A stretch of 64,000 bases of DNA from Phallus indusiatus (Eukaryota > Basidiomycota > Agaricomycetes > Phallales > Phallaceae): positions 1,922,001 through 1,986,000 of the forward strand of contig JAQFWX010000007.1 of the NCBI GenBank assembly GCA_027605045.1, in the 5' to 3' direction. This document shows positions 5,627 through 49,714 of this stretch, in pieces. Position numbers and translations under genes: made by a program. The stretch's first letter is position 1. The number at the start of each line of letters is the position of its first letter. The notes below the pieces were generated by a model. It did no database searches, had not been told where the DNA came from, and saw only the letters and a program-made list of their open reading frames with translations.

Positions 5627-7378
5627 ATGTCAAACGTTGACTCGTTAATCGGAGAGGGAAAATATTCACTCATTGCTCAGATGCCTCAGATGCCATCCCT
5701 GCCTTTCAATTTCAAGTTTGCTCAACGCAAAAAGAAGAGATCTGTCAATAATTCCTGCGCGTTTAACCGCCTTCCCTACGAGATATTCAGACGAATAATA
5801 CTCTATGCGGACGATAGAGTGTCATCACGTTTGTTGCTTTCAATGGCAAAGTCGGAGATAATTCCACCTCCAATAACAGCGTCGCATGTTTGTCGGTCGT
5901 GGAGAGCGGCGCTTCTATCTGACCCAACACTGTGGACATGCCTCAGGATTCCGCAAATGGAACCGCGACAGATAAAAGAGATGCTTCGTCGATCTGCTCA
6001 TGTGCCATTGAACGTGTTCATGGATACAAGTCGCTATGCTTTCAATGCCTCTTTTAGTCAGTGGAAAGTGTACCAAAACGAAGTTCTTCCCTCGGTTTTC
6101 AAAGAAATGAGCCGATTCAAGAGTTTCCGAATGGACTTCTCGCTGCACAGTCATTACACATTCAGAGCACTGGCGAACCGAGTCTTGGAGTTGCTAGATC
6201 AGCCGGCACCCATTTTGCAGGAGTTTTATCTAACAATCGGAACGACCCATCGCGAACAATTTTACGAAAGCGTGAAAACCCTTATGCGAAACATGCTCTC
6301 CGATACTCCTAATCTGAAACATCTATATCGACAAGTTTTGGATGATTTCCGACACCTTTCATTTCCATCTCATTTTCGAAATTTATATAGTCTTCATCTA
6401 GAGCTGGGGGAGGGCGTGGTGATTTGCTGTGATACTTTTTTTGATGTGCTCGAATCATCCCCTTTTCTTCGTACTCTTCAAATTGTAGCGTTTTGTGAAC
6501 CAACGCTTATTCCTCCGGCGTCTGCTGCTCGACGAGTCTCGCTGCCACACCTACAAAGCCTCAGCATCACTCAACTCAGTGATGTCCATGTCGCGGATCT
6601 CGTTTTCCGCCATCTCGTTTTTCCTGAAGAGATCAATTATGACATCGATTGCAGCAATTATTATCGAGAACTATCTCATACTTCATCGTTATTGCGATTT
6701 ATCACTCAACGACGACCTACGGATTTAAACCTATCGTTTCCCCCGAGCGGACGGCCTGTATTCACGACCTTCAATTATTTGGGACTACATACGAATACGC
6801 TTTCAATGAACGAGTATGTGGATTCCCAACATGAGGATAGCCTCCATAATCTGTTGCAAATTTTTACATTATCCGATGTAACAAGCTTAAATCTACGTTT
6901 CGCAGATGGATCAACAAATCCACCAGATAATTTGGTAAACACATTTCCCTTGCTGATCAATCTAAAATTCCTCCACATTCGGTACGACTTCTGGGATACT
7001 CGTTGTCGCACTATAATAACGGCGTCTATTCTCACATTAATCTCGTTTCCGCCTTATGCATGTTGGGTTCGAGATGGTGGCCCCAGTAACGACGAAATTC
7101 ACGACGCCCTTCTTAATCCTCAATACCCAAGTTGTCCTCTTCTTCACACGTTATCTATAGCCGTGGATCGGGACTGTTCGCAGCTAGACAAGACATATGC
7201 TACCGTGCTAAAAGCATGTTCACAGTTCCGACGGAGAGCGGGATATCCCCTTGAAGCTATAATCATTCGTTGTTCAAAATCAAGTTTGACCGAAGCAGCC
7301 GCAGCAATGTTATTGCCTCGTCGAGGTTTCCCCGTCACCATAAATTTAGAAGAAAATCTGGGATCACATCGGTTTTAA
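5627..7378 (+). CDS. F-box/LRR-like protein (583 aa)
   Basis: An uninterrupted ORF. The F-box starts near residue 45 (FNRLPYEIFRRIILYADD) and continues to HVCRSWRAALLSDPTLWTCL around residues 87-106, the canonical fungal pattern. The remaining 470 residues hold repeated leucine/hydrophobic segments such as LPHLQSLSITQLSDV and VTSLNLRFADG, in keeping with the irregular LRR solenoid of agaricomycete F-box proteins. By family it should recruit substrates to an SCF ubiquitin ligase through Skp1; the substrate cannot be inferred. The first ATG is taken as the start, and an internal Met near residue 20 is an alternative. It appears intact. It lies in a cluster with other F-box genes, as expected for a rapidly duplicating family. 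Confidence 0.85.
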   Translation: MSNVDSLIGEGKYSLIAQMPQMPSLPFNFKFAQRKKKRSVNNSCAFNRLPYEIFRRIILYADDRVSSRLLLSMAKSEIIPPPITASHVCRSWRAALLSDPTLWTCLRIPQMEPRQIKEMLRRSAHVPLNVFMDTSRYAFNASFSQWKVYQNEVLPSVFKEMSRFKSFRMDFSLHSHYTFRALANRVLELLDQPAPILQEFYLTIGTTHREQFYESVKTLMRNMLSDTPNLKHLYRQVLDDFRHLSFPSHFRNLYSLHLELGEGVVICCDTFFDVLESSPFLRTLQIVAFCEPTLIPPASAARRVSLPHLQSLSITQLSDVHVADLVFRHLVFPEEINYDIDCSNYYRELSHTSSLLRFITQRRPTDLNLSFPPSGRPVFTTFNYLGLHTNTLSMNEYVDSQHEDSLHNLLQIFTLSDVTSLNLRFADGSTNPPDNLVNTFPLLINLKFLHIRYDFWDTRCRTIITASILTLISFPPYACWVRDGGPSNDEIHDALLNPQYPSCPLLHTLSIAVDRDCSQLDKTYATVLKACSQFRRRAGYPLEAIIIRCSKSSLTEAAAAMLLPRRGFPVTINLEENLGSHRF

Positions 7379-15861: not shown

Positions 15862-17454
15862 ATGGATCATGTTCTATATGAAATCTTCTCCTACCTCCTC
15901 ACCTCAGATCAGGCTGTTATGACTCGTGTTTGCAGACAATGGTTTCACTGTGTGATTCCTCATCTGTACAAAACCGTGTGCATTTCACAAGCGGTAGCTC
16001 CCCTGGGAGAGCTGGTGTTACAGCCTGACAACTACTTCGTATGTGATTCTCTACAAGCTAGATTCATAATTTCTCATTCGCGGATATTCTTATAGCAATT
16101 CCGCGATCCAATCGCGGGGTATAACCGTCTCGAACGGTTTCTCGTATATGCAATCTACGTGCAGTCTTTAATTGTAAACGATGAGAGGTATAGTTTGGTT
16201 GTACAAAAATTAGCATGGTGGTCAAACCAAACAACGCCCGGCGCATTTCCTTTCCCGCGCCTTCGCTTCTTACAATGCGCGGGTGGAGACAAGAAATTTT
16301 GGGATAACATGAGCGCGTTACTCCCCCCTTCCGTGGATTACTTCTCTCTGTGCGCGTTTGAATGTTCACAAACCTATTTCCACAGTCTTTATCGTACTTT
16401 AACCGCTAATCGTACGGATCTCTACTTCCTCAATTTCGACAGTTGTTGCGATTTACAAGATGCCGCGTACTATGTATCAATATTCGAAAAGCTTCTCGAA
16501 TATTTCGCACATACGCTGGTATGGGTCCAACTACCGGAGATGTTGATTACCTCGTCTCTTCTCACCCGACTGGCGAACATAAAGAATCTTTGTAACCTTG
16601 CGATCGGCCCGCAGAACCCTCATCCACTGGCAGATCCTGATCCAATACGAATCACGAAAGGCTATACAGGTGCTAATGGCCAGGGGAACTTCGATGTGCT
16701 GCGTCAATTATATTACTATGAACTTCCCACTCCCTTGTGCGACGCCTTCCTTTTGAGTCACAACCTAACGTCCGTATCGTCATTCCACTGGGACTTCGAC
16801 TTTACCAAGGAGATCAAAATCGAATACCTTTTCACAATGCTCCATCGTCTCTTTCCCAGCCTAACCAGTCTACAACTAGGAAGCTCGGATATGTATGATT
16901 TCCATGATGTCGGGTTTGACGACATACCTCTGTTAGAATGGTCGTCATTATACCCGGTCTTGGGATGTCAGCATCTAACCGAGTTATCTGTGCATGTGAT
17001 GCGCTTGTCCATTACGCAGGAGCAATTGGTGGACATTCTCAGAAACAGGTCGTCTTGGAAAAAACTCGAACTGTACGCCGAAGAGCCGTTTGGCTTTCAA
17101 GAAATCAATCTCTTTGCGCAGCACTGTCCAAACCTAAGGCACCTGGGCCTATATTTCGACTTGACATATCGAGAAGACTCTCTTGGCTATTTAGATCACT
17201 CGGCAACTTTTCAACATCTGCAGTCGATCGATTTTGCGTATAGCGCGCTGATGTGTAATTGCGTTCACATAGTTGCCAGGTATTTCTACGGTATCTGTAA
17301 GAATCCACCTCGTCTTTTTGGCTGGGAAATGGAAACTTGGGACATGGTTGAGCGATACATCGCTGATTTCTATGTTGATGAGGAAAGAAAGACTGGGCGG
17401 CCGATGTCATCAGAAGCAAGAGATTATGTAGAGCAACTGGGTGTTATAAATTAA
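15862..17454 (+). CDS. F-box protein with LRR-like C-terminal region (511 aa)
   Basis: Two exons: 15862-16038 and 16096-17454, with a 57-base intron (GTATGT..TTATAG). Together they give 512 codons. The product starts with a short F-box, MDHVLYEIFSYLLTSDQAVM followed by TRVCRQWFHCVIPHLYKTV. The rest is the leucine-rich architecture of agaricomycete F-box proteins (for example LTSLQLGSSDMYDF, HLTELSVHVMRLSITQEQL, CPNLRHLGLYFDL). By family it is an SCF ubiquitin-ligase adaptor. The ATG at 15862 is chosen because it places the F-box at the very N-terminus; upstream codons in frame have no ATG. The frame looks intact. Confidence 0.85.
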
Positions 17455-21200: not shown

Positions 21201-22564
21201 ATCAATCGAGATTTGGGAGAGCTTGGGCGAATCGTATGGAAGGTCGAGCAGGGAGACAAGCACGAGAAAAACAGACCAGAAACCACATGTCGAAGAGTCA
21301 GTTTGTAGGCCAGTGAGCACAGACTTGACGCGTGATTGTGAGTGGTTCTGATCAAGAGATATTATTACATGATTTGATAACAATTATAACCACTTACGCT
21401 GATGTCAGATAGTTGGTGCAGGTTGCGAATGGCATTGAGAATTACACGGTGAGTGTTTGCACTCCCGGTCTCAAGTTGAGACAGGTGGCCCATCGAATTT
21501 ATGGCGATGGCTCGAACATCATCCTTTAATTGATGGTAATCCCAAACAGTCCAATGGAAATTCGAGAGGTTTATGAACACCACACGCCGAAAGAATGTGC
21601 GCTTGAACATCGCACAAGTATTAAACGCGAAATCGCCTGTCTGGTTTTCGAGATTAGACAGGTCAGAGGAGGCATAATTAAAGAGTGAACATACTACAAG
21701 CGGTTTAGAAGATGTCAACGCATTCACGACCTGTAACTCAAATCCGTTCTCCCCGGAAATAGCGATCCATGTGTGCAGGTGGTGTAAAATGCAGATGGAG
21801 TTTAGAAACTTCACGAAAATTTGCATCTCTTCGATTCGTAGGGTGTAGGCCGGGTTATCCCAACGGCTCAGATCTTCGGTATAGATCTGAGTTTCCTCTA
21901 GCTCCTCAACAGAGAAGCTATGGTGACCAACACGAGGGGTTATGTCAAGCGGAGAATGATGAGTGAGGTGTGTGGGAGGTGGACTGGGGGCACTAGGTGG
22001 AGATGGTTGTTTCGAGCCAGACCGTCTCTTTCGTGTAAGTGTTTTCTCTTTCATCTTGATCGTGCGAAGCTGAGATTTGAGGAAAAGTGAGTTCTTGGCC
22101 CGTTGTTGTCGTTTGGGCCCTCTCTTGAGCTGAAACGCGACTCTGCGTTTGGCGCGATGAGGCATTAAAGGAGTAATTCGCGCAGGCCATCCCGCTCGTA
22201 TATACCCACTGCGAACTAGTGAATTTGGACATGAATTTAGATCAGTTGATCGCAAATGCATGAATAGTATTTACTTACAGCCATTCGAGCTTGTTGAACT
22301 GGCATCGGATCCAGGCGATTGGAGAACTATGGCACTCCTGGAGGCTCGCGAGCCCGTTGTTTGAGCGTCGATACTAGTGTACTCCGGATCATGAAGTAAT
22401 TGGTCGATTAGTCTGGGAATTTCAGCGTCAAATGCAGCATCCGCAAGTTGGCGAGTTTGGGCAGCTGAACCTGTCGGGGTCACTGCTGATCTTTGAATTT
22501 CGGTTTCTTGTTCTGCACAATATATGCGTTTGCCATTATGCGATATCATGACGAAATCAGACAT
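18211..22564 (-). CDS. Large protein with two successive Ulp1-like (C48) peptidase domains
   Basis: Eleven exons read by eye: 22564-22279, 22215-21398, 21347-21057, 21006-20590, 20539-20375, 20316-20212, 20157-19957, 19904-19392, 19340-18708, 18648-18511 and 18462-18211. Introns are 48-63 bases; the total is 1273 codons in one frame. The second domain has the full Ulp1 layout: HWILIT (His near 20472), VYDSAA (Asp near 20421) and QQKDGVSCGIYML (Gln/Cys, Cys near 20120). The first carries NFHWTVWDYHQ (His near 21555), AINSMG where Asp would be expected, and LQTDSSTCGFW (Cys near 21286). The tail holds Pro/Ser-rich linkers and ends RRSKRQAALNHAF..SGDYAPFCE. Ulp1 peptidases cleave SUMO or ubiquitin-like modifiers, and related genes are also carried by some DNA transposons. 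I saw no terminal inverted repeats here. Confidence 0.78.
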
Positions 22565-22696
22565 ACTGTAACGGTTCCGCTATGACCAGCGGACTACTAT
22601 TACCCATAGTACATATTAGTATATATATACAATTGCATGCAGACGATCGTCGTCTGCACAAGTACCTAGTATTATGTAATGTACATAGGCGCCGTC

Positions 22697-23017
22697 TGTA
22701 ACGTTTCGTTACTTTTTATAGTGTACCGCTTGCGGTACACAGTTTATATCACGCTGTAGTTTCACGCCACAAGTAACAGACCAAAGTGCTGTATTTTCTT
22801 TGTGGAGTAAAACAAGTTGCGCATGCTGAATCAGCACGCGCGTAGCTACTACTAATGTATAGTTATTACATAATGGCTCGCCGCGCCGCGGCGAGCCAGA
22901 GGCGTTAAGCGCCTCTGTTATTAGAGTAAGTAATAGTAACTACTGCAGAGGGCGAAGCCCTCTGCATATGCCTATGTGGCATATACTCAATCCACCGCAT
23001 GCGGTGGATCCGTTACA
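22697..23017 (-). repeat. G1 3' LTR
   Basis: Starts TGTAACG, ends CGTTACA. Made almost wholly of palindromes: 22698-22712, 22721-22740, 22875-22897 (arms GGCTCGCCGC), 22946-22966 and 22990-23009. Pairs with 31563-31883. Confidence 0.9.
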
Positions 23018-23693
23018 TCCTCCCCTTGTGACTTGGACTCCAAGTCATAGGATCGCGAAGAGGAAGCATCTGACTGTAATCAGTCAGAGGGATTGCTGTA
23101 GTCAATCTCCATGCTCTCCGAGGCACTCGGATGCGGTGCGTCAAGGTCCTCAGGGGCCTCAACAATTCCTCGTCCGTCATCTGAATTGGGACGGACGGGG
23201 AGTAAACCTTATTAGGCGGGCCTGCCACAATACTGGCAGGTGATGCCGACGCATGGACGGCGGGGGCGGCCGACTGAGTCGTACGCGCCTTTTTTGTTGG
23301 ACGATCCAGTCCACGGCGCACGCGATAGTCATGCGCGATGCGATTAACATCTTCTCCATTGGCGTAACGTTGGAGAAGGGGCGCGATCACCTCAGTGACG
23401 CGTCTTGTCGTCGCTCCATTGGCGTGCATGGAGCGAATCACCTCCTCTATGGTAATGGAGGAGGGGGATTTGCACTCGAAGGAACGAGTGTAGCCTTCCA
23501 TGAGCGTGGAAGGCAGGTGGGTGGAGGAATTACCCCTACCACCGAGAACTTCTTCCCACACAGTAAGTGCGGGGTCGAGGAGGCACTCAGCCGCCTTCTC
23601 GAGGAACTTGGCACGCACTTCACGAGTACGTGTGACTCGTTTGAGCCATGCGAACACCTCAACATCTTGAGGGTTTAATGATCCATCCGACAT
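23013..23693 (-). CDS. G1 accessory ORF C (226 aa), unknown function
   Basis: Last ORF of G1, ending inside the first bases of the 3' LTR. It starts with ATG overlapping the stop of the preceding ORF as TAATG. The first half looks helical (VFAWLKRVTRTREVRAKFLE, ITIEEVIRSMHANGA, IAPLLQRYANGEDV); the second half is low-complexity and basic (VRRGLDRPTKKARTT). I recognise no domain. No counterpart exists in G2 or G3. Its position suggests an accessory product peculiar to this family. Confidence 0.55.
   Translation of the reverse strand: MSDGSLNPQDVEVFAWLKRVTRTREVRAKFLEKAAECLLDPALTVWEEVLGGRGNSSTHLPSTLMEGYTRSFECKSPSSITIEEVIRSMHANGATTRRVTEVIAPLLQRYANGEDVNRIAHDYRVRRGLDRPTKKARTTQSAAPAVHASASPASIVAGPPNKVYSPSVPIQMTDEELLRPLRTLTHRIRVPRRAWRLTTAIPLTDYSQMLPLRDPMTWSPSHKGRM
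23018..23028 (-). other. G1 polypurine tract
   Basis: On the minus strand AAGGGGAGGA abuts the 3' LTR start, the usual primer site for plus-strand cDNA synthesis. It overlaps the end of accessory ORF C. Confidence 0.6.
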
Positions 23694-24832
23694 TAGTCGG
23701 ATGTAGGGAGGACCTGGTTAGGGTCCGCATTCCAAGTATTGATTAAATACTTGATCTCGGGGTGGATTAACTCTCCCGAGATAAACACCACCGATGGACG
23801 GTTGGCGGCAGCCTCCATAGCTTCAAGCTTGGCTGTTTTCCTCGCCAGGCGGCGCTCCTTCATGGATCTGCGCCAACGAGTCCATGCGTATGAAATACGC
23901 ATGTGAACCCCTCTGTCATCGGGGTACGTGAACACCGGGGGGTCGGTCCAAACCCGGGTTCCAATCTCGACGAACAATGGTTCGTCGAGGCTGCAGGTGT
24001 TATACCATGCAGTAGGATTGGGGGTGCCAGGCACCAGAGAATGATCCCCACTAACAGTGGGGTCGAAACCCTTGACGAAGAAGGGCCATGGGTCCCTATT
24101 GGAGTCCCATCCTGGCTTGGTCCGTGGATACGGACCAGAGGGTTTCCTTGGAGAAACCGGGGCAGCATCGCGAGAGCCCGATGCCTTGGTTGCATCAGCG
24201 TAGGTACGCTGAGGCTTGTGTTTGGTGGACGACGCGATGGAGGCGTCGTCATCATAGTCATTATCATCGACTATATCTTCCATGTCGTCGTCAGACGACA
24301 TGTCGTTGAAGATATCAGGCAAAGGGGCTGCCTGGGATGGTTCAGGCGCTTTATCGGCCTGGTCTCTCGACCGCTTTTGGAGGTCGATGGGGTAGTCGAC
24401 GGGCCTGCCGTCGACGCTGAACGTTCAAGTTCAGCAATGCGAGCTTTCAGCTCGCAGATATGACGATTCGCATCGTCGAGGTGGTCTGTCAAGGACTTGA
24501 CGTCCTTTTCAGCTTCTTCTAGACGTTCGTCTAGATGATAGTACTCCTCTTTATGAAGGGAAAGGCCTTGTAGACGGCCTGCTTGACCATATCATGGTCA
24601 AGGATGATTGCCCCGCTGCCAGCGGGGCCTGCCAGGTGACTGGCAAAGTCGTTGCACGCAGTGCAACTATCATTGTTATGATAGACGGATATGCATCCGT
24701 CCATCGCGTCTAAGGTCCATTCGGACCTTTGCAGGGCCAGTTGAGCCTCTGCTTTTTGAACCTACTAACAGGTTGCGGCGTAGGCGACCGCGAGCGTGAT
24801 CGTTCGCGTTGTTTTCCCTTGCTGTCAGGCAT
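23693..24832 (-). CDS. G1 accessory ORF A/B, frame-broken, unknown function
   Basis: Starts MPDSKGKQRERSRSRSPTP at 24832 and ends at 23693. The content is an Arg/Ser-rich start, a short segment with CTAC, a coiled-coil-like part (HLDERLEEAEKDVKSLTDHL then ICELKARIAELER), an acidic patch (MSSDDDMEDIVDDNDYDDD), and a conserved-looking C-terminus (DPWPFFVKGFDP, FTYPDDRGVHMRISYAW, RRSMKERRLARK). At least two frame changes (about 24720-24550 and near 24390) separate these pieces in this copy. I cannot assign a function. A nucleic-acid or capsid partner role would fit the composition, but that is inference. Confidence 0.5.
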
Positions 24833-24911
24833 GGGGGTGTGAGGAGAAAAGACCGTGAACGGACTTTTGGGTTATATACTTGGGCGGCCTCATGGAGCGC
24901 CCAAGTGAAAA

Positions 24912-25892
24912 TTACCTCACCGCGTAGCAGTGAAGTGCCAGTGGATCCCTGTGGGTGGGATCTTCAAGCAGATCCCGAGTGGGATCTGGGCGCTTGTTGT
25001 TGGTCCGCGACTCTCCGTGATTGGATAGTCGTGGCAGCTGCCGAGGCTCGTTTACGCCTCGTAATTGCAAGTACTCGTCTAGAGCTTGCAAGTCCTTACA
25101 GTTACTGTAAGGTTCCCAAGTGGTATCCCCAAGGGTTCACTGGACTAGGAACTCGAGATCTTTCTCGCGAGTTCCACTCCAGCGATGAGCTAGGAGTTCC
25201 TCGACGTGCCATTCAGCATCGTCTGGCTGTCCAAAGTCATACGCCGTGAGTGTATCGCGGCGTGGAAATCTCTCATCGTCGTTGGCGATGTGAGGTTTAA
25301 TCAAATCCACGTGAAATACGGGATTTATGCGACGTTGCTTGAGCTCTTCAGAGAGCTCAAGTTTTACTGTGATATTGTCTTTAACGGACAATATTTTGTA
25401 TGGTCCCACATAACGCGGGATCAACTTCTTAACTCTCCCCTTGGGGAGGTTGAGATTCCTCGTCGACAGATAGACGAGGTCACCCTCTTTGTACTCCGGT
25501 GCATCGCGCCGTGAGTTGTTCGCGTAGTGAGCCTGTTTAACGCGATTGGCTATGATAGCGTCATGCGCTATCATGAGGTTCCACTTTGCCTGTTGAGCAA
25601 AGTGTTGAACACCTTTGAATTTGGTGTTCGTCTCAATTTTCCTTCCCAAACTGGGAAGGTAGCCGTAGTTGAGTTCAAACGGCGCGAAACCAGTGGTTTC
25701 GCTGGTGCTGCTATTAATAGCAAACTCCACCATTGGGATCCTTTCGGCCCAATCTTTTGATCGTTCTGTATGACGGAACGAAGTATTTGACCAATTGAGC
25801 GATTGGCTCGCTCGGTAGATCCATCCGTTTGCGGATGGAACACCGTGGACATGAGCAATCGTGTCCCCATTAGGCGTTGCAGTTCCTGCCAA
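24912..25892 (-). CDS. G1 integrase C-terminal part with chromodomain
   Basis: Continues integrase after a frameshift near 25755: WAERIPMVEFAINSS, FAPFELNYGYLPS and VGPYKILSVKDNITVKLEL, the region after the DDE core. The chromodomain follows, EWHVEELLAHRWSG..LEFLVQ, then TLGDTTWEPYSNCKDLQALD. An in-frame TGA at 25137-25139 replaces the Trp expected between VQ and TLG. Chromodomains direct Ty3/Gypsy chromovirus integration to modified histones. The product reads on to a stop at about 24912. Confidence 0.75.
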
Positions 25893-26368
25893 AACTTGGC
25901 AGTGAATCGTGCATCCCTGTCACTCACGATTGAGTCAGGGACACCGTGGAGTCTTACGACTTCACTGAGGTATAACCAGGCTGTGCCCTTGGCGGTCAGC
26001 TTGGTGGTGGTTGGCATCAGACGAACCATAGAGGTCAGTCTGTCAATCACGACGAATAGGAAGTCGTGGCCGTTTGAAACGGGTAATGGACCGACGAAGT
26101 CCATTCCAATCGATTCCCAAGGTTTATTGGGAATCAGGAGTTGTTTTAACAGACCACTGGGGTGATTATTCTCCCCTTTGTTGGTCTGGCACGTTCCGCA
26201 GGATCTGCAGAACGTATCGATGTCTTCAATCATCGATTTCCACCAGTACGCTTGTCTAACGTACTGAGACGTTTTGTAACGTCCAAAGTGCCCAACAATT
26301 TGGTGGGCCTCACTGATTATAATCTCAGTGATCCTCCTCCCCTTGTAAAATGCGTTATGGGGACGCAT
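25571..26368 (-). CDS. G1 integrase (zinc-binding and catalytic core)
   Basis: Inserts cDNA into host DNA. It has the H-H-C-C motif (HQIVGHFGRY..CRSCGTC) followed by a DDE core: GMDFVGPLPVSNGHDF, SIVSDRDARFTAKFW and TDGSTERANRS provide D, D and E. The frame is entered after a one-base loss in a C run near 26360 (CCCC here, CCCCC in the fragment at 32490) and lost again at an A run near 25755 (AAAA here, AAAAA at about 34370). Confidence 0.82.
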   Translation of the reverse strand: MRPHNAFYKGRRITEIIISEAHQIVGHFGRYKTSQYVRQAYWWKSMIEDIDTFCRSCGTCQTNKGENNHPSGLLKQLLIPNKPWESIGMDFVGPLPVSNGHDFLFVVIDRLTSMVRLMPTTTKLTAKGTAWLYLSEVVRLHGVPDSIVSDRDARFTAKFWQELQRLMGTRLLMSTVFHPQTDGSTERANRSIGQILRSVIQNDQKIGPKGSQWWSLLLIAAPAKPLVSRRLNSTTATFPVWEGKLRRTPNSKVFNTLLNRQSGTS

Positions 26369-27510
26369 AATACATCGCGGAGGAACTGATTCTTGGTAAA
26401 GATCAGTTGATTTTTAATTCCAAACGCCTTGTGAGCGTTTGGGTTGGCAAGAACCAGCTTAAATACTGGGTCCTTGTGATAACCTTGCTGTATCAGCGAG
26501 GTAAATTCAGCAAAGCCCTCAATTTTGGCTTTAAGAAGCTTGCTGTCTTGCTCTGCACTTAGAGCAAGTATATCCTCATCGGATTGCGCTTCTGTAATAT
26601 CAGAAGGTGTAGTATTTGAGGGACCTTCAACTCGAGGTTCCTCTCGTACTCGTGAACGTGTAATAACGTTCACTCTCACTTCATCCCTTCTTTCGATGGG
26701 AAGATGATCCCCTTCGGGATCAAGTCTAACGTCAGCGTTGACGTATACCTCCGGAGGGTGAACCTCATCCGGAGTGTCCTCTTCGTAATAACGAGAGAGG
26801 CCATCGGCGACATTGTTAGTGACACCCTTGACATGAATCGTCTCGTAATCAAAACGAGACAGGTATTCATACCACCGTGCTTGGCGCGGTGACATGCGAG
26901 GCTGGGTCTTGAAGTGGACCATGGCCTCGTTGTCCGTTACTAGGGTGAATCTACGCCCTAGTAGTTTGTCTTCCCACTTAAGGAAGGCTTCAAGTACCGC
27001 GATGAGCTCATGCTCATGGGTGCGGTAGTTGTACTGAGCAGGGGTGAACTTCTTCGAGAGAAACCCTGCTGGCCTACATGTTTGCCATGTAGGCCCTTGC
27101 CCATAATAGGCACCGACGCCACATTTAGAGCCGTCGGTTACGACCCAAATTGGATCTGGGTCGTCCACGTTAATAGGCTTCAAGATAGGAGCCTTTCGCG
27201 TGAGTGCTTTGATTGAATCAAAGCACTTGTTCAACAACGGCGTCCATACGAACGGTCTGTTGTTGTACGTACACCCTGATAGTGGTGTAGTGTATGCGGC
27301 TACCCCTGGTAGGTATGCCGCAACGTATTGTACGAGGCCCAGAAATTTCTGGACATCGTTATACGTGCGTGGAGTTCTCCACTCACGTATTTTATCCATC
27401 TTCTCTTGATCGGGATGGATGCCATCATCGTCAATGATGTGGCCTAAGCACTCCAGTCGCTTAGAGTATAAGTCAACTTTACGACTACTCAGGTAAAGTT
27501 GTGCCTCTCA
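26317..27510 (-). CDS. G1 RT thumb/connection and RNase H
   Basis: Starts in frame with CLGHIIDDDGIHPD and MDKIREWRTPRTYNDVQKFL, a typical Gypsy connection. RNase H follows: IWVVTDGSKCGVGAYY, HEHELIAVLEAFLKWEDKL and FTLVTDNEAMVHF with D, E and D present. The linker to integrase reads through VRVNVITRSRVREEPRV. The frame differs from the upstream RT ORF by an indel near 27510. Confidence 0.78.
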
Positions 27511-28024
27511 AACGCGAGAAGGCGTTCTCTAGATGCTGCTGATGCAGATCTATTGTGTTTGAATAGACGAACACGTCGTCTATGTATGCATCCGTCGAAC
27601 GACCGATGCAGTCCCTAAAGATATGGGTCATCAGACGTTGAAACGTCGATGGGGCATTGCAGTCTCCTTGCTGCATGACATGGCTCTTGAAAGTGCCATA
27701 GATGGTGGCAAAGGTCGTCTTGTGGACGTCCTCTGGGACTATGCGTACCTGCTCGTACGCCTCAGTCAGATCAATCTTTGATCTGTATTTGTGTCTCGCC
27801 ACGTTCTGGCGGATGGTTTCCTGGTCAGGGAAGGGCGTTACGTCCTTCTCTGTGTTTTCGTTCTGCAGGCGCAGATCGAACACGGTCCGTAGTGCTAAGA
27901 CCACGGCTCGTTTCTGCAGGCAAAGCATAGGGATTGCCTGTGTAGCTACAGTTGGTTCCCACCAACCTGCAGCTACGTATCGCTGAATCTTTTCAGCGAG
28001 TAGCGCTTGAGCGCATCCGGGCAC
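27485..28024 (-). CDS. G1 reverse transcriptase (fingers/palm)
   Basis: Copies the element RNA into DNA. Motifs: WEPTVATQAIPMLCLQKR, VFDLRLQNENTEKDVTPFPD, YRSKIDLTEAYEQVRIVPED, HVMQQGDCNAPSTFQRLM and the catalytic YIDDVFVYS. A perfect 8-bp hairpin (27563-27583, arms ATAGACGA/TCGTCTAT) lies over the YIDD codons. The frame is shifted against the protease ORF near 28010. Confidence 0.82.
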   Translation of the reverse strand: MPGCAQALLAEKIQRYVAAGWWEPTVATQAIPMLCLQKRAVVLALRTVFDLRLQNENTEKDVTPFPDQETIRQNVARHKYRSKIDLTEAYEQVRIVPEDVHKTTFATIYGTFKSHVMQQGDCNAPSTFQRLMTHIFRDCIGRSTDAYIDDVFVYSNTIDLHQQHLENAFSRLRGTTLPE

Positions 28025-29100
28025 CTGGGAAGGTGGTACCGGATCTTCTTATTGGGTTCAATAAGAGGAATCTGATGATTCACTTCCCGAAACGGGGGAA
28101 GTCGGGAAGGGACAGGACCGAAAAGGTCACTGTACTTGTTCTTCCAGTACTCGATGAGTGCTGGGATATTCTCTTCCGTCATCTCAGGGACGGAGGAGCT
28201 GGAATGTTGGGTGCTGGCTAGCACCATCGCTCCTGTTTCAGGAGCGTGTCCAATCACATGGTGATTGGTGTCAATCACCTCGCCGTCGCGGGTGATTGTA
28301 CCTCTGCTGAAATCCAGGCAGATGTTGTAGCGTCTCAGGAATGGGACGCCAATGATCACATCATAGTGATCGATGTTGACGATGTCAAAGTACTCTTGGA
28401 CATCGATACCTCCGAATTGGATTCGGGTGTACGTTCCATACTGGATGGAAGACTTGCTGCCCTTAACGGCCAGCTGCAGCACGACAGGTTTGTCGAGCTT
28501 GAAGGTTCTTGCCCCGGTGGCAAGAGAGAAATGAGGGGACATGATCATCCCCTGGCATCCACTGTCGACTAGGCAGTGAGCCAATTGGCCATTAACTGGC
28601 CAGAAACCCTCAATGGGTCTCGATGCGTTTCTGTCTCGTGTTGGGGCACGAGAGCTCACTCTAGCCGTATGGTCATAGAGTGGTTCCTTGCTCGTAGCGA
28701 GCGAGGACTCATTGTCATCCAATGGCGATGACTTGTGGACCGCGAAGTGCAGTCTGCGCTCCTCATACTCGTCACCAATTGTGAGGAGCATGTATACACT
28801 GGGACCATTGTCATCATCGTCCCATTGGTATTGGATGCCCTCGTCGTCCTCGACGGGGTCGTTGGTGGGCTCGTCTTGGGCCACCTCTTCCTCCACAGCT
28901 TGTTCAGCTGTGGGGTCTTCCACGTTCTCCTGCGGGGCATCGTTCGATGTCTCGCCAGAGGTCTCTTCAACCTCTTCGATACGACCCACATTGGCTCGTA
29001 CCTGTCTCAGTCTGGGGCACGCATTTCTGTAATGTCCCACCTGCCCACAGTTGAAACACGTGGGAGGGGTAGTGCTAGTGCGATTGTTCGTACTAGTTGG
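27973..29100 (-). CDS. G1 zinc knuckle, acidic linker and aspartic protease
   Basis: Begins with a CCHC zinc knuckle CFNCGQVGHYRNAC, continues through an acidic Glu/Asp-rich linker (EEVEETSGETSNDAPQENVE), then the retropepsin: LVDSGCQGMIMSPHF (DSG instead of DTG) and YDVIIGVPFLRRYNICLDF. It ends at the RT start (KKIRYHLPRCPDAL). The frame is open back to about 29180, so a frameshift from the gag ORF at 29007-29954 is needed to join them. Confidence 0.75.
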   Translation of the reverse strand, partial: PTSTNNRTSTTPPTCFNCGQVGHYRNACPRLRQVRANVGRIEEVEETSGETSNDAPQENVEDPTAEQAVEEEVAQDEPTNDPVEDDEGIQYQWDDDDNGPSVYMLLTIGDEYEERRLHFAVHKSSPLDDNESSLATSKEPLYDHTARVSSRAPTRDRNASRPIEGFWPVNGQLAHCLVDSGCQGMIMSPHFSLATGARTFKLDKPVVLQLAVKGSKSSIQYGTYTRIQFGGIDVQEYFDIVNIDHYDVIIGVPFLRRYNICLDFSRGTITRDGEVIDTNHHVIGHAPETGAMVLASTQHSSSSVPEMTEENIPALIEYWKNKYSDLFGPVPSRLPPFREVNHQIPLIEPNKKIRYHLPRCPDALKRYSLKRFSDT

Positions 29101-29954
29101 GGCAGTCCTAGCGAGCTGCGAGTTATGATTTCTCGAGCTTGATGAGCTCGAGGGCGATTCCCCAATGGGGAATTGCCATTAGTTCGCGTCTCATGGGGAC
29201 GCGCAGAGGGACCGTGGTTCCTCTGGTTCAAGCGCATATTGTTTGAATGCGCTTGTCTGGCCAAGTTGGTGTGGCTGCTGCTGCTGCCACTACCACTACT
29301 GCCACTACTACCCGTTGGACGGGTAGTGCTTCCTTGGGAGGCCGTTATCGACCTCCGCTTCTTGAACGCCTCCTCTACTTGGATGGCGAGTGCAAGTAGT
29401 TCCTTAGCAGACATCTGCTCAGGACTACCGCCTCTGAATGCTACTTCAGCGGCGAGGCTGTGGTTCAGCCCATCAAGGAACCTCCTCCTGAATGTATAAT
29501 CATCAGGAGGGTGCGCTAGTCTGTTGGCTAGCGTGAGTAACGCACTCATGTATTCGTGTACAGAGTGCGATCCTTGCCATTCGCGTTCGAACTGGATCGC
29601 CACCTCACTTCTCGAGTGGGGTGGGAGGAATCGTTCGTGTAGTCTCCGTAAAGCGGGGACTAGGGTCCACTCATGCATGGGACGAGTACCTCGTTCCACG
29701 TTCTGGGTGAACCACTCTTGTGCCAACCCTTCTAGGCGCATGCCTAGAAAGGAGAGTTGCTCTGCTTGGCTGACTTCTCCAAGCAGGTGGTTTACGCGTA
29801 GCCAGCGTAACAGACCCGACACAAAGTTGTCGAAGTCCTCGGCTCTGGACGAGCCGCTATATGTGGGCGGGAGCCCTATCTTCGCTCCTGCTTTCGCAAG
29901 GGGCGAGTTGCCTGGCATCATATCCCTGTTTGCAATCAGGGCTTCTTGAACCAT
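29007..29954 (-). CDS. G1 gag, capsid-like part
   Basis: Contains a Ty3/Gypsy capsid pattern: GLPPTYSGSSRAEDFDNFVS, LRWLRVNHLL, LGMRLEGLAQEWFTQNV, IQFEREWQGSHSVHEYMSAL and FRRRFLDGLNHSLAAEV, then a basic Ser/Gly-rich tail. ATG follows the stop of the upstream ORF by two bases. Its last 35 codons run in the wrong frame past the zinc knuckle, where the next ORF takes over. Confidence 0.78.
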   Translation of the reverse strand: MVQEALIANRDMMPGNSPLAKAGAKIGLPPTYSGSSRAEDFDNFVSGLLRWLRVNHLLGEVSQAEQLSFLGMRLEGLAQEWFTQNVERGTRPMHEWTLVPALRRLHERFLPPHSRSEVAIQFEREWQGSHSVHEYMSALLTLANRLAHPPDDYTFRRRFLDGLNHSLAAEVAFRGGSPEQMSAKELLALAIQVEEAFKKRRSITASQGSTTRPTGSSGSSGSGSSSSHTNLARQAHSNNMRLNQRNHGPSARPHETRTNGNSPLGNRPRAHQAREIITRSSLGLPQLVRTIALALPLPRVSTVGRWDITEMRAPD

Positions 29955-29956
29955 GG

Positions 29957-31477
29957 CTATGACGCCCTCAAGTACTGGGCGTCGTCGTTGAAAGGGTCAA
30001 ATCTTTCAACACGTTCCTCATCGAACGGTGTGGCGCGGAGATCCTCGCCATACTGTGGTCGACGAGCGTATCCATCATATGGATCGATACGTGGTGCTTC
30101 TGCTGGGTTAGCAGATGCTTGCCTCTGCCCATTGGGCTCGGCACTTTGCCTTGGCAGTTGTCTGCCAGGGGGTGATGCTCTGTCGTCTGGACGACTTGAG
30201 CTTGTGGCTGGGTCTGGCGATGGGATCCTATCGCCAGTGATGGCATTATAGCCACCTTCAAGCACACGAGCATGGCGGACCGCGTTCATACGCGCGTCCC
30301 TCGCGATGCGGATCCTATTTTGGATGATCCGCATTTGCTGCTCGTTGGGAGTGTCAGTCTCGAGAGAGCCTGCTACAGCTTCCTCGAGCGCATTAGTGGC
30401 CGTCTCCACAGCCCGTGCATGCGTACGGATTGCTCTGTCGGAGAGTAGCCTTGCTATCCTCTGGTATTCGAGGGCAGCTTGGGCGACCACTTCAGCATCC
30501 TCTCGTGGGGGTGCTCCATTTCGCGACTGGTTCACCAGTCGCGTGGCTATCTCGGTATCGATATAGTCACCAACCGCGTCAGACTCGTGAGGCGGTTGTC
30601 TTGTGAAACGGTGCATTCGTCTCACTGTTTCTCTGCCAGCCTCTATTTCAGGGCCGGGGTTTCTAGGAGCTGTATATGCCGTAGCTCCTTGAGTAGGAGG
30701 TCTATCAGGACGCGTACTCGGTCCTGGGGTAACGTTCTGAGAACGTTGTCTGGTGCCTGTTGGTGCAGGCTCAGGGGATTGGGAATTACCAGCTGTCGCT
30801 GGTGACGGACTGGCATATGTCGGTCCCGTCGGTGTAACAAACCTAGCTTGTGGGGCTGGGTTTGTGAATTGATATGCAAGGCGACTCGTCGGCCCTGCTG
30901 GTCTAGGACGAGTAGATCCAGTACCTGATGCAGGCGGATCTACCGCTCTGCTTTTTCCTTTGTCAGAGCGTGCTCGTGCAGGCTCTGCTTCAGGAGACAA
31001 GTCTGTTGTCCTGACTTGGTCCCTGTCAGTGCCTGTAGTAACAGGCTCTGGCTCAGGGTTTTCAACTCCTGCGTTGACATTCTCGATTAATCGAGCTAGT
31101 CTCTGCAGTTCTGACGGGGACATATTCCCGTTCCTCACGCCATCGAGTAACGATGCGTGAACAGCGTTCATTGTCTCGTCCCTTCGGATGGACCTGTCGC
31201 TCCTGACGCTAAGTCTGGAGCGACCAGATGCTACGGACTTTACGTCCTCATCTTCTTCATCAGCGAGTTGGGGCTGATGTTCCATCGTCTGCGACGCAGG
31301 ACGAGTGGGATTTTGGGTTGATGCATCCACTCTCTCCCATGTGGATGACTCTCCTTCGAGGGTTCCTTCCCTAGACGGGTCGGGATTTTCGGTTTGCACT
31401 GGCCCGGGTGGGTCAGGCTGATTGGAATCAGGTGTACCACGATCTGGTGCACTCTGACTCCTGGTAGTAGGAGCCAT
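29957..31477 (-). CDS. G1 gag-like N-terminal ORF (506 aa), largely disordered
   Basis: First ORF after the 5' LTR, starting MAPTTRSQSAPDRGTPDSNQ. The composition is Pro/Ser/Thr/Arg-rich and probably disordered, with helical pieces (EDAEVVAQAALEYQRIARLL, EQQMRIIQNRIRIARDARMN). It ends two bases before the capsid ORF. It may be an N-terminal gag extension translated separately. No enzymatic motif seen. Confidence 0.65.
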   Translation of the reverse strand: MAPTTRSQSAPDRGTPDSNQPDPPGPVQTENPDPSREGTLEGESSTWERVDASTQNPTRPASQTMEHQPQLADEEDEDVKSVASGRSRLSVRSDRSIRRDETMNAVHASLLDGVRNGNMSPSELQRLARLIENVNAGVENPEPEPVTTGTDRDQVRTTDLSPEAEPARARSDKGKSRAVDPPASGTGSTRPRPAGPTSRLAYQFTNPAPQARFVTPTGPTYASPSPATAGNSQSPEPAPTGTRQRSQNVTPGPSTRPDRPPTQGATAYTAPRNPGPEIEAGRETVRRMHRFTRQPPHESDAVGDYIDTEIATRLVNQSRNGAPPREDAEVVAQAALEYQRIARLLSDRAIRTHARAVETATNALEEAVAGSLETDTPNEQQMRIIQNRIRIARDARMNAVRHARVLEGGYNAITGDRIPSPDPATSSSRPDDRASPPGRQLPRQSAEPNGQRQASANPAEAPRIDPYDGYARRPQYGEDLRATPFDEERVERFDPFNDDAQYLRAS

Positions 31478-31562
31478 TGAATCCTCCTGTAATAGGAAGG
31501 GTTAATTTCGCTTGCTTAATACAGCGGCGGGTTGTTTTTAACGCCTTTGGTGTTAAAAAAGA

Positions 31563-31883
31563 TGTAACGTTTCGTTACTTTTTATAGTGTACCGCTTGCG
31601 GTACACAGTTTATATCACGCTGTAGTTTCACGCCACAAGTAACAGACCAAAGTGCTGTATTTTCTTTGTGGAGTAAAACAAGTTGCGCGTGCTGAATCAG
31701 CACGCGCGTAGCTACTACTAATGTATAGTTATTACATAATGGCTCGCCGCGCCGCGGCGAGCCAGAGGCGTTAAGCGCCTCTGTTATTAGAGTAAGTAAT
31801 AGTAACTACTGCAGAGGGCGAAGCCCTCTGCATATGCCTATGTGGCATATACTCAATCCACCGCATGCGGTGGATCCGTTACA
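31563..31883 (-). repeat. G1 5' LTR
   Basis: Same 321-bp sequence as 22697-23017; the only difference I see is in the palindrome around 31685 (gcgcgtgc here, gcgcatgc in the other copy). Ends at a G2-type LTR fragment. Confidence 0.9.
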
Positions 31884-32074
31884 CGTCTGGCACTTAGCTG
31901 TGTCAGGGCCGCACGCCGCGTTATCGTTTTTCATGTATATAGTCGCAGTCCCTAGAGTGAGGGTCCCTAAGCTTGTTCTCTTAGGATCCCCTCCCTCTAG
32001 GTGAGTAGTTAGTTCTCCCTAATATATTTCTCTTAGGATCCCCTCCCTCTAGCTTGAGCTGAGTAGCCCTAACA
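31884..32074 (+). repeat. G2-family LTR fragment
   Basis: Ends GCCCTAACA like other G2 LTRs (in inverse orientation to 38244 and 50668). It contains the twice-repeated ggatcccctccctct motif, a TATA (tatatag) and the self-priming 11-mer AAGCTTGTTCT. The other end is missing at the G1 junction. Confidence 0.75.
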
Positions 32075-32596
32075 AGGACGCTCCGGATGAGATTCATCCT
32101 CCGGAGGTATACGTCAATGCTGACGTTAGACTTGATCCCGAAGGGGATCACCTTCCCATCGAAAGAAGGGATGAAGTGAGAGTGAATGTTATCATGCGTT
32201 CACGAGTACGAGAGGAACCTCGAGTTGAAGGTCCCTCAAATACTACACCTTCTGATATTACAGAAGCGCAATCCGATGAGGATATACTTGCTCTAAGTGC
32301 AGAGCAAGACAGCAAGCTTCTTAAAGCCAAAATTGAGGGCTTTGCTGAATTTACCTCGCTGATACAGCAAGGTTATCACAAGGACCCAGTATTTAAGCTG
32401 GTCCTTGCCAACCCAAACGCTCACAAGGCGTTTGGAATTAAAAACCAACTGATCTTTACCAAGAATCAGTTCCTCCGCGATGTATTATGCGTCCCCCATA
32501 ACGCATTTTACAAGGGGAGGAGGATCACTGAGATTATAATCAGTGAGGCCCACCAAATTGTTGGGCACTTTGGACGTTACAAAACGTCCCAGTACG

Positions 32597-33225
32597 TGTA
32601 ATGTATTTGCTCTGGTTCAAGGTATAGGCACCTTGTACTGTTGCAAATAAGAGAGCTGTTTAGGGGGAACCTAGTCTAGCAACAAAGGTCTTGTTATTGA
32701 GGGTGAGACAGAGCTTGCTGCTGCTGTTGAAGACTTGAGCTGGCTGCTACTGATAGTCTTGAGGTAGAGATAGAAAAGAGAAAGAAAAAGAAAAGAGAAA
32801 GACCAATTTAATTGGTAAGCACTATGGTGCACTAGTATAGATGATAAGGCAGATTCCTATTTACAAGAGAAATCAGCCCCTATTTATACACTTTGGGGCT
32901 GCTACAAATAAAGCAAAATATTAGTAATTAAAAGATAAGGAATTACTTAGAAAGGAAATTAATTAGTAAAGGTGGAGTAATAAAAATTATAGTGAAACAT
33001 TATTAGTGAGACAGAAAAATAAAAGTACCTGGAACTGAGTCATATGACTGTTCCTAGAAAATAAACAAATAGAGATACACAAATACAAGTAAGAGCTCAA
33101 AAAAGAATAGTAAAAAACTGACATAATGTGGGCTTTTGTTGTTTATATGCTGTTTTTGGATTTAGTGGCTGTGCCTTTTGACTTGTTTTTGCTGAGCTGG
33201 GTAAAAGTGCCCTAGATACATGACA
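32597..33225 (-). repeat. Solo LTR of family E, copy 1
   Basis: 629 bp, TGTAATGTATT..ATACATGACA as written, flanked by the 5-bp duplication GTACG. Inverse orientation of 33400-34029. A TATA-like tatttataca is inside. No coding content. Confidence 0.85.
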
Positions 33226-33399
33226 GTACGTTAGACAAGCATACTGGTGGAAATCGATGATTGAAGACATCGATACGTTCTGCAGATCCTGTGGAACGTG
33301 CCAGACCAATAAAGGGGAGAATAATCACCCCAGTGGTCTGTTAAAACAACTCCCGATTCCCAATAGACCTTGGGAATCAGTTGGAATGGACTTCGTCGG

Positions 33400-34029
33400 T
33401 GTCATGTATCTAGGGCACTTTTACCCAGCTCAGCAAAAACAAGTCAAAAGGCACAGCCACTAAATCCAAAAACAGCACATAAACAACAAAAGCCCACATT
33501 ATGTCAGTTTTTTTTACTATTCTTTTTTGAGCTCTTGCTTGTATTTGTGTATCTCTATTTGTTTATTTTCTAGGAACAGTCATATGACTCAGTTCCAGGT
33601 ACTTTTATTTTTCTGTCTCACTATAATGTTTCACTATAATTTTTACTACTCCACCTTTACTAATTAATTTCCTTTCTAAGTAATTTCTTATCTTTTAATT
33701 ACTAATATTTTGCTTTATTTGTAGCAGCCCCAAAGTGTATAAATAGGGGCTGATTTCTCTTGTAAATAGCAATCTGCCTTATCATCTATACTAGTGCACC
33801 ATAGTGCTTACCAATTAAATTGGTCTTTCTCTTTTCTTTTTCTTTCTCTTTTCTATCTCTACCTCAAGACTATCAGTAGCAGCCAGCTCAAGTCTTCAAC
33901 AGCAGCAGCAAGCTCTGTCTCACCCTCAATAACAAGACCTTTGTTGCTAGACTAGGTTCCCCCTAAACAGCTCTCTTATTTGCAACAGTACAAGGTACCT
34001 ATACCTTGAACCAGAGCAAATACATTACA
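33400..34029 (+). repeat. Solo LTR of family E, copy 2
   Basis: 630 bp, TGTCATGTATC..AATACATTACA, flanked by GTCGG on both sides. Removing it restores the FVGPLPV codons of the integrase. Internal tataaatagg is a probable promoter element. Confidence 0.87.
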
Positions 34030-34415
34030 GTCGGTCCATTGCCCGTTTCAAACGGCCACGACTTCCTATTCGTCGTGATTGACAGACTGACCTCAATGGT
34101 TCGTCTGATGCCAACCACCACCAAGCTGACCGCCAAGGGCACAGCCTGGCTATACCTCAGTGAAGTCATAAGACTCCACGGTGTCCCTGACTCAATCGTG
34201 AGTGACAGGGATGCACGATTCACTGCCAAGTTCTGGCAGGAACTACAACGCCTAATGGGGACACAATTGCTCATGTCCACGGCGTTCCATCCGCAAACGG
34301 ATGGATCTACCGAGCGAGCCAATCGCTCGATTGGCCAAATACTTCGTTCCGTGATACAGAACGATCAAAAAGATTGGGCCGAAAGGATCCCAATGGTGGA
34401 GTTTGTTATTAATAG

Positions 34416-49612: not shown

Positions 49613-49714
49613 ATGAGCTGGAAGTGAGTAGTTCAGGAAGAGTAGATTTAGAAGTCCGCTTTAGGAAGAACCATCCCTATTACCAAATAAGGAAGATTTT
49701 GGTGCGCGACAACA

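Follow-up and report, generated by a model that had tools for sequence, protein, structure and literature searches.

How short hairpins can fill a retrotransposon through its long terminal repeats (LTRs) and its protein-coding regions, and what keeps or produces them, is the question raised by a Ty3/Gypsy element found in the window, i.e. the whole 64-kb stretch of Phallus indusiatus DNA that was analysed. The element, referred to here as family A, carries its gag-pol region on the minus strand. Both LTRs start with TG and end with CA, as in Ty3/Gypsy elements (Table 1). Target-site duplications were inspected at the window copy, which is flanked by a 4-bp duplication (CGTC/CGTC), and at a related solo LTR nested in another copy (L031), where the duplication is 5 bp. 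Pfam matches place the protease (PR), reverse transcriptase (RT), RNase H (RH) and integrase (IN) in this order along the minus strand, and the same order was found within one long frame of another copy. Sequences with basidiomycete names are among the database hits of the RNase H part. In the integrase part, Integrase_H2C2 scored above the cut-off and the rve core below it. In another copy's long frame, SH3_Tf2-1 passed (47.6 bits) and Chromo reached 22.1 bits against a cut-off of 25.1. Family A is thus similar to Tf1/Tf2-like chromoviral Ty3/Gypsy elements in its LTRs, its gag-PR-RT-RH-IN order and its SH3_Tf2-1 match, with the Chromo match below cut-off, but differs in being saturated with hairpins throughout and in containing two ORFs that lack a significant Pfam match, one of about 500 aa ahead of gag (ORF1) and the other, the 3' ORF, reaching 606 aa. 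The 3' ORF, split in the window copy, is a single 606-aa frame in copy L034, and no homologues of it were detected at E ≤ 0.001 among 8000 candidates scored. Single-sequence structure predictions were of low confidence both for the ORF at 23013–23693 (mean pLDDT 42) and for ORF1 (47), the latter being mostly helical. No Rfam match at gathering scores was found within 22000–32500, and no tRNA in the 64-kb window (ARAGORN, bacterial setting).

Table 1. Features of the family A element and hairpins with compensatory changes (window positions; hairpin counts in coding parts are for arms of at least 6, observed against codon-preserving shuffles)
Feature	Position	Strand	Evidence or remark
Whole hairpin-saturated Ty3/Gypsy element, family A	22697..31883	-	LTRs, Pfam domains, hairpin excess
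5' LTR (element's sense), 321 bp	31563..31883	-	TGTAACG...CGTTACA
ORF1, 506 aa	29957..31477	-	No Pfam match; 18 hairpins vs 3.6
gag ORF (Retrotrans_gag)	29007..29954	-	13 hairpins vs 2.0, segment 29043-29954
Protease part (RVP_2)	27973..29040	-	20 hairpins vs 3.3, segment 28025-29040
Reverse transcriptase part (RVT_1)	27485..28024	-	7 hairpins vs 1.2
RNase H part	26317..27399	-	17 hairpins vs 2.1, segment 26371-27399
Integrase part	25571..26368	-	10 hairpins vs 1.7, segment 25895-26368
Downstream ORF piece, position of integrase C-terminal side	25137..25892	-	15 hairpins vs 1.7
First piece (209 aa) of the 3' extra ORF	23693..24322	-	12 hairpins vs 2.7, segment 23696-24322
Second piece (226 aa) of the 3' extra ORF	23013..23693	-	No Pfam match; 12 hairpins vs 2.5
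3' LTR (element's sense)	22697..23017	-	TGTAACG...CGTTACA
Hairpin, clearest compensatory case	26244..26266		At two pairs, both partners differ between family A and family B with pairing kept; same loop
Hairpin, same-copy double change	25372..25394		A-T in 9/12 copies, G-C in 3/12
Hairpin, same-copy double change	24438..24456		G-C to A-T in 1/12 copies

Hairpins were counted as perfect, non-overlapping inverted repeats with arms of at least 6 and loops of 3–13. The whole element including both LTRs contains 162 of these, against 19.3 (sd 4.3) in 20 dinucleotide shuffles; at arms of at least 7 and at least 8, the numbers are 105 against 4.6 and 68 against 1.2, respectively. The nine coding segments contain 124, against 20.7 in 30 codon-preserving shuffles (sd 3.4, highest shuffle 27), or 49 against 3.2 at arms of at least 8, and an excess is present in every segment. 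The hairpin saturation of the element is therefore real and extreme. The initial annotation, made from the sequence alone, had described a high palindrome density running through LTRs and coding regions, and this description holds against both types of shuffle. All ten inverted repeats that it named are present at the positions given, with outer perfect arms of 5–10, and the hairpin at 27563–27583 sits inside the reverse transcriptase part. The 5' LTR contains nine hairpins with arms of at least 5 (arms 5–11), covering 56% of its length. When loops of up to 15 are counted, there are 168 hairpins, which together take up 39% of the element, and the mean spacing between hairpin centres is 55 bases.

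The enrichment is limited to loops of up to about 14–17, arms of up to 8–9 and spans of up to about 30, and the longest perfect arm at loops of at least 3 is 11. The excess declines with loop length and is almost absent beyond about 17, a decay that fits a folding single strand and thus counts for an explanation by folding. No period was found in the spacing of hairpins along the element, a check proposed in the initial annotation, and the three codon registers of pairing are represented by 43, 36 and 45 hairpins, without marked preference. No common loop or arm motif was noticed on by-eye reading of the listed hairpins, so that recognition by a protein, one of the causes first considered, is not indicated. 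A strict 22-nt guide model, i.e. a small-RNA size limit, is not supported because spans reach 29–30 and the folding excess per base still increases up to windows of 60–90. With z values of 2.3 to 2.4, Watson–Crick stems become more frequent toward the 3' end; this gradient was considered as a sign of time spent as single-stranded minus cDNA but was set aside because it vanishes when antisense wobble pairs are included (z 0.35 and −0.56).

The same hairpin density was found in 11 other family A copies, namely those with close LTR pairs (LTR pairs >10 kb apart, on C121, C123, C148 and C168, were left out), and in none of nine host stretches. Two other Gypsy elements of the same genome, G2 and G3, are close to chance with a mild excess at arms of at least 7. 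At arms of at least 6, 7 and 8, the three ORFs of G2 contain 18, 9 and 1 hairpins (12.9, 2.9 and 0.7 expected), and those of G3 contain 19, 8 and 4 (10.8, 2.7 and 0.8 expected), respectively. Among 30 pattern matches in viral contigs, no relative was confirmed. Hairpins were also considered as landing sites for nested elements and rejected as such: 3 of 10 target-site centres of insertions nested in family A copies lie inside hairpins, which cover 37%, and the mean distance to the nearest hairpin axis is no shorter than random (P 0.43).

A relative with 71% DNA identity, family B, shows the same pattern in weaker form; both families are dense, yet many hairpins are not common to both. L053, a fragment taken as a possible intermediate, is another family B copy. 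Where pairs of family A hairpins are altered on both sides between the families, 18 of 32 are complementary, against 61 of 243 slid controls (P 0.0006), and for family B hairpins the numbers are 14 of 24 and 37 of 141 (P 0.003). About half of the double-sided changes seen are silent on both sides; in the hairpin at 26244–26266, both changes at pair 26250/26260 alter an amino acid. A degenerate form of this hairpin occurs at 109 places in the genome; the A state accounts for 50 of these, the B state for 53 and other states for 6. Compensatory changes, whose absence the initial annotation had named as one way to refute its claim, are thus present between families, and two further cases were found among 12 family A copies (Table 1), a search that left out about 27666–27830 of L034, where gap characters matched themselves. 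On the sequences compared, family B suggests that folding itself is being preserved.

Stems of at least 7 pairs with one interior mismatch were divided according to whether the mismatch can be repaired silently. Silently repairable A-C mismatches number 14 against 3.1 expected, whereas G-T mismatches are near chance (4 vs 2.8, with 7 vs 5.6 at ≥6 pairs and 12 vs 12.9 at ≥5), as are the remaining six types combined (5 vs 6.2), which somewhat exceed expectation at ≥8 pairs (5 vs 1.9). Non-repairable mismatches occur at 4–14 times expectation for every type but T-T (1 vs 0.5), and imperfect stems are in large excess. The excess over codon shuffles, the retention of double-sided pairs and the near-chance number of repairable mismatches other than A-C bear out the earlier view that something must keep or produce the palindromes despite coding. 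Because A-C in the coding strand corresponds to G-U wobble in the opposite strand, this bias may point to an antisense folded molecule. Stems of at least 9 number 54 (5.5 expected) with antisense wobble counted, 20 (2.6) with sense wobble and 13 (0.8) with Watson–Crick pairs. Directly outside arms of 8–12, repairable A-C pairs number 13 against 5.0 and G-T pairs 2 against 5.4, an asymmetry absent outside arms of 5–7 (15 vs 17.9 and 13 vs 12.0). The A-C:G-T ratio is 17:7 at ≥6 pairs, which is not significant (P 0.17), and a borderline 29:12 at ≥5 pairs (P 0.053); with the ≥6 threshold set apart, the one-sided P values of the other three thresholds range from 0.017 to 0.053. In family B there is only a hint, A-C and G-T numbering 6 and 1 at ≥6 pairs (2.7 and 1.4 expected) and 7 and 4 at ≥5 pairs (6.5 and 4.0). 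At fourfold-degenerate sites, A (314) and T (325) are nearly equal, so there is no sense-strand A bias, C (372) exceeds G (264) in the sense strand, so some strand bias exists, and arms are not richer in G+C than unpaired sequence.

The reading that we tentatively prefer, with somewhat less than even confidence, is that families A and B form a clade of Ty3/Gypsy elements whose whole sequence is shaped to fold as short local hairpins. With similar reserve, we consider that local folding of a single-stranded form may be kept by selection, acting on single-nucleotide changes, and, more tentatively, that the antisense strand is a more likely target than the mRNA. The folded molecule might then be antisense RNA (an antisense transcript or a product of a host RNA-dependent RNA polymerase, RdRP) or minus-strand cDNA during reverse transcription. 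Speculatively, a self-folded antisense strand would anneal poorly to sense RNA and give poor guide RNAs, which could make the element a weaker substrate for host RNAi; the host genome contains Argonaute, Dicer and RdRP matches. It is improbable that the entire antisense strand, LTRs included, has been made a hairpin chain by largely silent changes as a structural defence against RNAi or sense pairing.

Variation among copies and folding energies do not support selection for antisense folding. Local folding energy beyond that of codon shuffles counts for a folded single strand, but it does not mark out the antisense one. Among the 12 copies, variable sites are as dense in arms (42.4 per kb) as in spacers (42.1; loops, 60.4). 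Changes shared by at least two copies do not fall significantly less often in stems than private changes do (27:65 against 106:214, P 0.53; with only silent changes counted, 9:46 against 29:103, P 0.43), whereas amino acid change is lower among shared than private changes (P 0.015). Mismatch repairs in stems show no clear excess (12 vs 8.2, sd 2.8). A shared-versus-private difference in stem breakage (P 0.0017) was discarded because the direction of shared changes is not known.

Mutational maintenance, in which imperfect hairpins of folded minus cDNA are made perfect at every replication cycle by template switching or by mismatch repair within the hairpin while protein selection purges harmful products, is a serious rival to selection for folding, if on the whole a doubtful one. 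It requires no benefit to the element and accounts for the turnover of hairpins, the lack of G+C preference in arms, the span limit and stems as variable as spacers; correction of single mismatches would also leave the non-repairable ones. As far as the available text of the reports goes, quasipalindrome correction by template switching turns imperfect into perfect inverted repeats at short range (PMC8604942, PMC7202029), arm homogenisation of this type is described for one yeast lineage, in 39 of its protein-coding genes (PMC8604942), in contrast to the whole-element saturation here, and conversion has been proposed to keep perfect inverted repeats in mitochondrial protein genes of Nematomorpha, which are gained and lost while the proteins are preserved (PMC6649704). 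In the described part of the nematomorph data, however, arms reach 284 bp and long ones are nearly always perfect (PMC6649704), whereas family A has perfect arms of 6–11, spans of up to about 30 and abundant imperfect stems, and its pattern extends over a whole mobile element including LTRs. Template switching, suggested initially as a cause, should moreover bunch differences in one arm where whole tracts are converted, but A–B differences are spread evenly over both (P 0.55 for A hairpins in B and 0.31 for B in A), with the caveat that later single changes at 29% divergence could blur bunching. Mutational maintenance also leaves unexplained the sparing of A-C but not of G-T mismatches, and why G2 and G3 are near chance in the same genome.

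Folding of the genomic RNA or mRNA along its whole length appears distinctly unlikely, whether it would serve packaging, stability, control of translation or concealment from guide RNAs. Some RNA viruses have genome-wide ordered RNA structure, defined by folding energy far beyond shuffles, coding regions included, and by sense RNA in which G-U is accepted. Family A resembles them in the first respect, its local folding energy exceeding composition- and codon-preserving shuffles along the element (z −5.4 to −15.1 against codon shuffles in nine segments, both strands), and the z value is stronger for the sense than the antisense strand in eight of nine segments. It differs in that its hairpins are short and local, its genome is that of a retrotransposon, and silently repairable sense G-U is not spared. 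One-sided differences likewise show no G-U bias (25 G-U, 34 A-C and 62 other for A hairpins in B; 22, 18 and 24 for B in A), so that packaging of sense RNA, an initial suggestion that predicts G-U tolerance, is not favoured. For Ty3, also a Ty3/Gypsy element, structures have been mapped in the genomic RNA, whose coding sequence contains palindromes and hairpins, but the available part of the report describes six palindromes of 6 nt close to the 5' end and one palindromic dimerisation site, and no saturation (PMC11381356). A role in duplex DNA (cruciforms, integrase targets, or chromatin or transcription factors) is very improbable, for although symmetric Watson–Crick pairing would suit both strands and LTR-element insertion in plants has a weak palindrome preference in the part of the report available (PMC6911290), the absence of a noticed motif, the loop-length decay and the placement of nested insertions all speak against it.

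The element is a natural case of secondary structure and protein coding fitted together across 9 kb, and no comparable hairpin density in any retrotransposon was found in the open-licence PMC literature, searched by titles and abstract openings. Within that literature, either cause would be new. If selection is responsible, the single-stranded form would be targeted by a strong factor, either of the host or of the replication cycle; if mutation is responsible, reverse transcription in this clade would correct hairpins fast enough to shape whole genomes.

By gene content, family A, the hairpin-saturated element family, is an ordinary Tf1/Tf2-like member of the Ty3/Gypsy group; its hairpin saturation, unlike its gene set, is not ordinary. 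The copy in the window is bounded by two LTRs of 321 bp each (TGTAACG...CGTTACA), between which ORF1 (506 aa, without a Pfam match) is followed by gag, protease, reverse transcriptase, RNase H and integrase, with a 3' extra ORF last. Its reading frame is interrupted at several points, and long open frames were found in other copies (gag-pol, 1665 aa; ORF1, 502 aa; 3' ORF, 606 aa). When the genome (67 Mb in 206 contigs) was searched with the LTR, at least 44 family A matches were listed, at least 40 of them near full length, which is a lower bound (40 of 157 candidates scored). The RNase H search listed at least 115 matches for family A and its relative with weaker hairpin density, family B, taken together, likewise a lower bound (113 of 438 candidates scored). 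Going solely by names attached to protein hits, the host is probably a basidiomycete.

Loci L031-L041, fetched from the genome, carry ten nested insertions, 158-595 nt long, with target-site repeats of 5-10 bp. One 400-nt kind (TGTCAGGGTACG...GTAGCCCTAACA) occurs in L032 and L035 and twice in L040, where one of the two is inverted.

Locations of the family A element, neighbouring elements, and other stretches observed
Locus	Coordinates	Strand	Feature
Window	22697-31883	minus	Family A element, Ty3/Gypsy LTR retrotransposon
Window	22567-22696		LTR of a different type (TGTAACGGTTCCGC...) adjoining family A; solo copy in L033, likewise hairpin-rich (six hairpins, arm >=5, across 264 bases)
Window	32075-34415		Partial pol copy of family A, 96-98% identical, split by the apparent element copies of the next row
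Window	32598-33223, 33401-34029		Seemingly two copies of a ~627-nt element in opposite orientation, 99% complementary; a large inverted repeat inside 32075-34415
Window	49712-49841		Diverged solo or partial family A LTR, 95% identical
Window	62599-62918		Diverged solo or partial family A LTR, 88% identical, eight hairpins (arm >=5) retained
Window	5627-7378	plus	Open frame, 583 aa, without a Pfam match
Window	16159-17454	plus	Open frame, 431 aa, without a Pfam match
L016, L023	373-647 (L016), 2564-2827 (L023)		Hairpin cluster outside family A, arms CCCCAGAC, GCCCGGAC, AGTCCGGA
L045 (host background)	~2101-4076 (C111:1002101-1004076)		RdRP match; three relatives found of a nearby exon
C140	G000:C140:1592397-1593121		Two stretches with A_deamin (adenosine-deaminase domain) above cut-off

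The palindrome density of family A is real. The initial annotation had described short palindromes throughout the window copy, and all 10 of its named examples proved exact. With arms of at least 6 and loops of 3-13, the whole element contains 162 non-overlapping perfect hairpins, compared with 19.3 (sd 4.3) in 20 dinucleotide shuffles; with arms of at least 8, the numbers are 68 and 1.2. The density exceeds that of codon-shuffled controls in each of the nine coding segments, which together hold 124 hairpins versus 20.7 (sd 3.4) in codon-preserving shuffles (30 per segment) at arms of at least 6, and 49 versus 3.2 at arms of at least 8. Eleven other family A copies, picked by LTR pairs no more than 10 kb apart, carry 16.2-18.0 hairpins per kb, and host background carries 1.7-3.4 in all nine 10-kb stretches picked by coordinate. 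The other two Gypsy elements of the window, G2 and G3, were said to lack this density, and their counts (three ORFs each) indeed lie close to chance, arms of at least 7 being mildly enriched.

The enrichment is almost absent beyond loops of about 17 and spans of about 30. With the LTRs excluded, arms of exactly 6, 7, 8, 9, 10, and 11 number 59, 40, 44, 12, 3, and 1, respectively (expected, 14.5, 3.8, 1.0, 0.4, 0, and 0). The family A hairpins show no period in their spacing and no marked preference of pairing for a codon register, the G+C content of arms at fourfold sites is no higher than that of unpaired sequence, and no common loop or arm motif was noticed when the hairpin list was read by eye. 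Local RNA folding is stronger than in codon shuffles in all nine segments and on both strands (z -5.4 to -15.1).

Family B, whose protein is 70% identical to that of family A, is represented here by fragments of three copies, all from the same part of pol (L051, 3.0 kb; L052, 2.0 kb; L053, 0.75 kb), which contain 11.7, 14.5, and 12.0 hairpins per kb, respectively, at arms of at least 6; arms of 8 are scarce (2 in L051). The alignment of the two families spans 2678 bases at 71% identity; the stretch under comparison holds 60 hairpins of family A, 50 of which fall wholly within aligned sequence. Compensatory changes, which the annotation had called for, are evident between the families: double-changed pairs of family A hairpins are Watson-Crick in 18 of 32 cases, compared with 61 of 243 over eight slid controls (P 0.0006), and those of the 35 family B hairpins in 14 of 24, compared with 37 of 141 (P 0.003). 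With each change judged singly in family B's codon, both sides are silent in nine of the 18 kept pairs, one side in six, and neither in three. In the clearest kept hairpin (26244-26266), the nine-base loop is unchanged and two pairs are swapped on both sides; the swap at 26250/26260, read from the aligned sequence, is non-synonymous on both sides (V to I, A to V). Among 109 genome matches to this hairpin, counted only at places fitting a form degenerate at six positions, 50 have the A state, 53 the B state, and 6 another. Many hairpins were found in only one of the two families, so individual hairpins turn over. Among 12 family A copies, seven pairs vary on both sides, and the same copies carry both changes in two of them and not in the other five.

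Tract conversion predicts that differences between the families cluster in one arm; they do not (P 0.55 and 0.31), which speaks against that process. Silently repairable mismatches are at about chance level, and mismatches whose repair needs an amino-acid change are several-fold above expectation in seven of eight types. The unbunched differences and this mismatch pattern favour selection. The main rival is mutational correction of hairpins in single-stranded cDNA, and the mismatch pattern is also what mutation would leave after filtering by selection on the protein. Several results from the copies also count against selection: shared changes are not significantly rarer in stems than private changes (27:65 versus 106:214, P 0.53, 12 copies), variable sites per kb number 42.4 in arms, 42.1 in spacers, and 60.4 in loops, and mismatch repairs show no clear excess (12 versus 8.2 expected, sd 2.8). 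Stem breaks are below expectation (44 versus 63.6, sd 7.2). Variation among the copies likely arose mostly after insertion, which makes these tests weak; though weak, they do not favour selection.

Mismatches within stems suggest that the folded strand is more likely the antisense than the sense strand. If folding of the mRNA were important, sense-strand G-U pairs should be spared, and they are not: silently repairable G-T mismatches in stems of at least 7 pairs number 4 (2.8 expected). The corresponding A-C mismatches, which are G-U pairs on the antisense strand, number 14 (3.1 expected). One-sided P values for the split are 0.026 (at least 7 pairs), 0.017 (8), 0.17 (6), and 0.053 (5); the six remaining repairable types, pooled at 8 pairs or more, are likewise above expectation (5 versus 1.9). 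Stems of at least 9 number 54 (5.5 expected) with antisense wobble and 20 (2.6 expected) with sense wobble. Immediately outside arms of 8-12, repairable A-C and G-T mismatches number 13 (5.0 expected) and 2 (5.4 expected), respectively; outside arms of 5-7 the split is absent (15 versus 17.9 and 13 versus 12.0). At fourfold sites of the sense strand, a mutational A bias is not visible (A 314, T 325), and C (372) exceeds G (264). Family B gives only a hint (A-C 6 and G-T 1 at 6 pairs or more; 2.7 and 1.4 expected). Folding energies fail to single out the antisense strand, the sense z being stronger in eight of nine segments relative to codon shuffles, perhaps because shuffled antisense sequence already folds better.

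In some RNA viruses, RNA structure extends genome-wide. Among titles and abstract openings of the open-licence PMC articles listed, in part the best 10-15 per search, no retrotransposon with such hairpin saturation was found; the nearest known cases are long perfect coding palindromes in Nematomorpha mitochondria (PMC6649704), template-switch homogenisation in yeast genes (PMC8604942), Ty3 genomic RNA structure (PMC11381356), and LTR elements whose insertion weakly favours palindromic sites (PMC6911290).

If selection acts on folding of the antisense strand, the molecule that folds locally could be either antisense RNA or minus-strand cDNA. Antisense RNA folded on itself would pair poorly with its target and be a poor source of guides. 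Hairpin spans extend to 29-30 rather than 22, which argues against a strict guide-size model. The lengthwise gradient expected of a role in cDNA is seen for Watson-Crick stems and is gone once antisense wobble is counted. The genome contains matches to Argonaute/Piwi (20 stretches), RdRP (33), and Dicer (2), so that avoidance of RNAi by family A is possible; a role of the fold in the cDNA, in compaction, protection, or strand transfer, is equally open.
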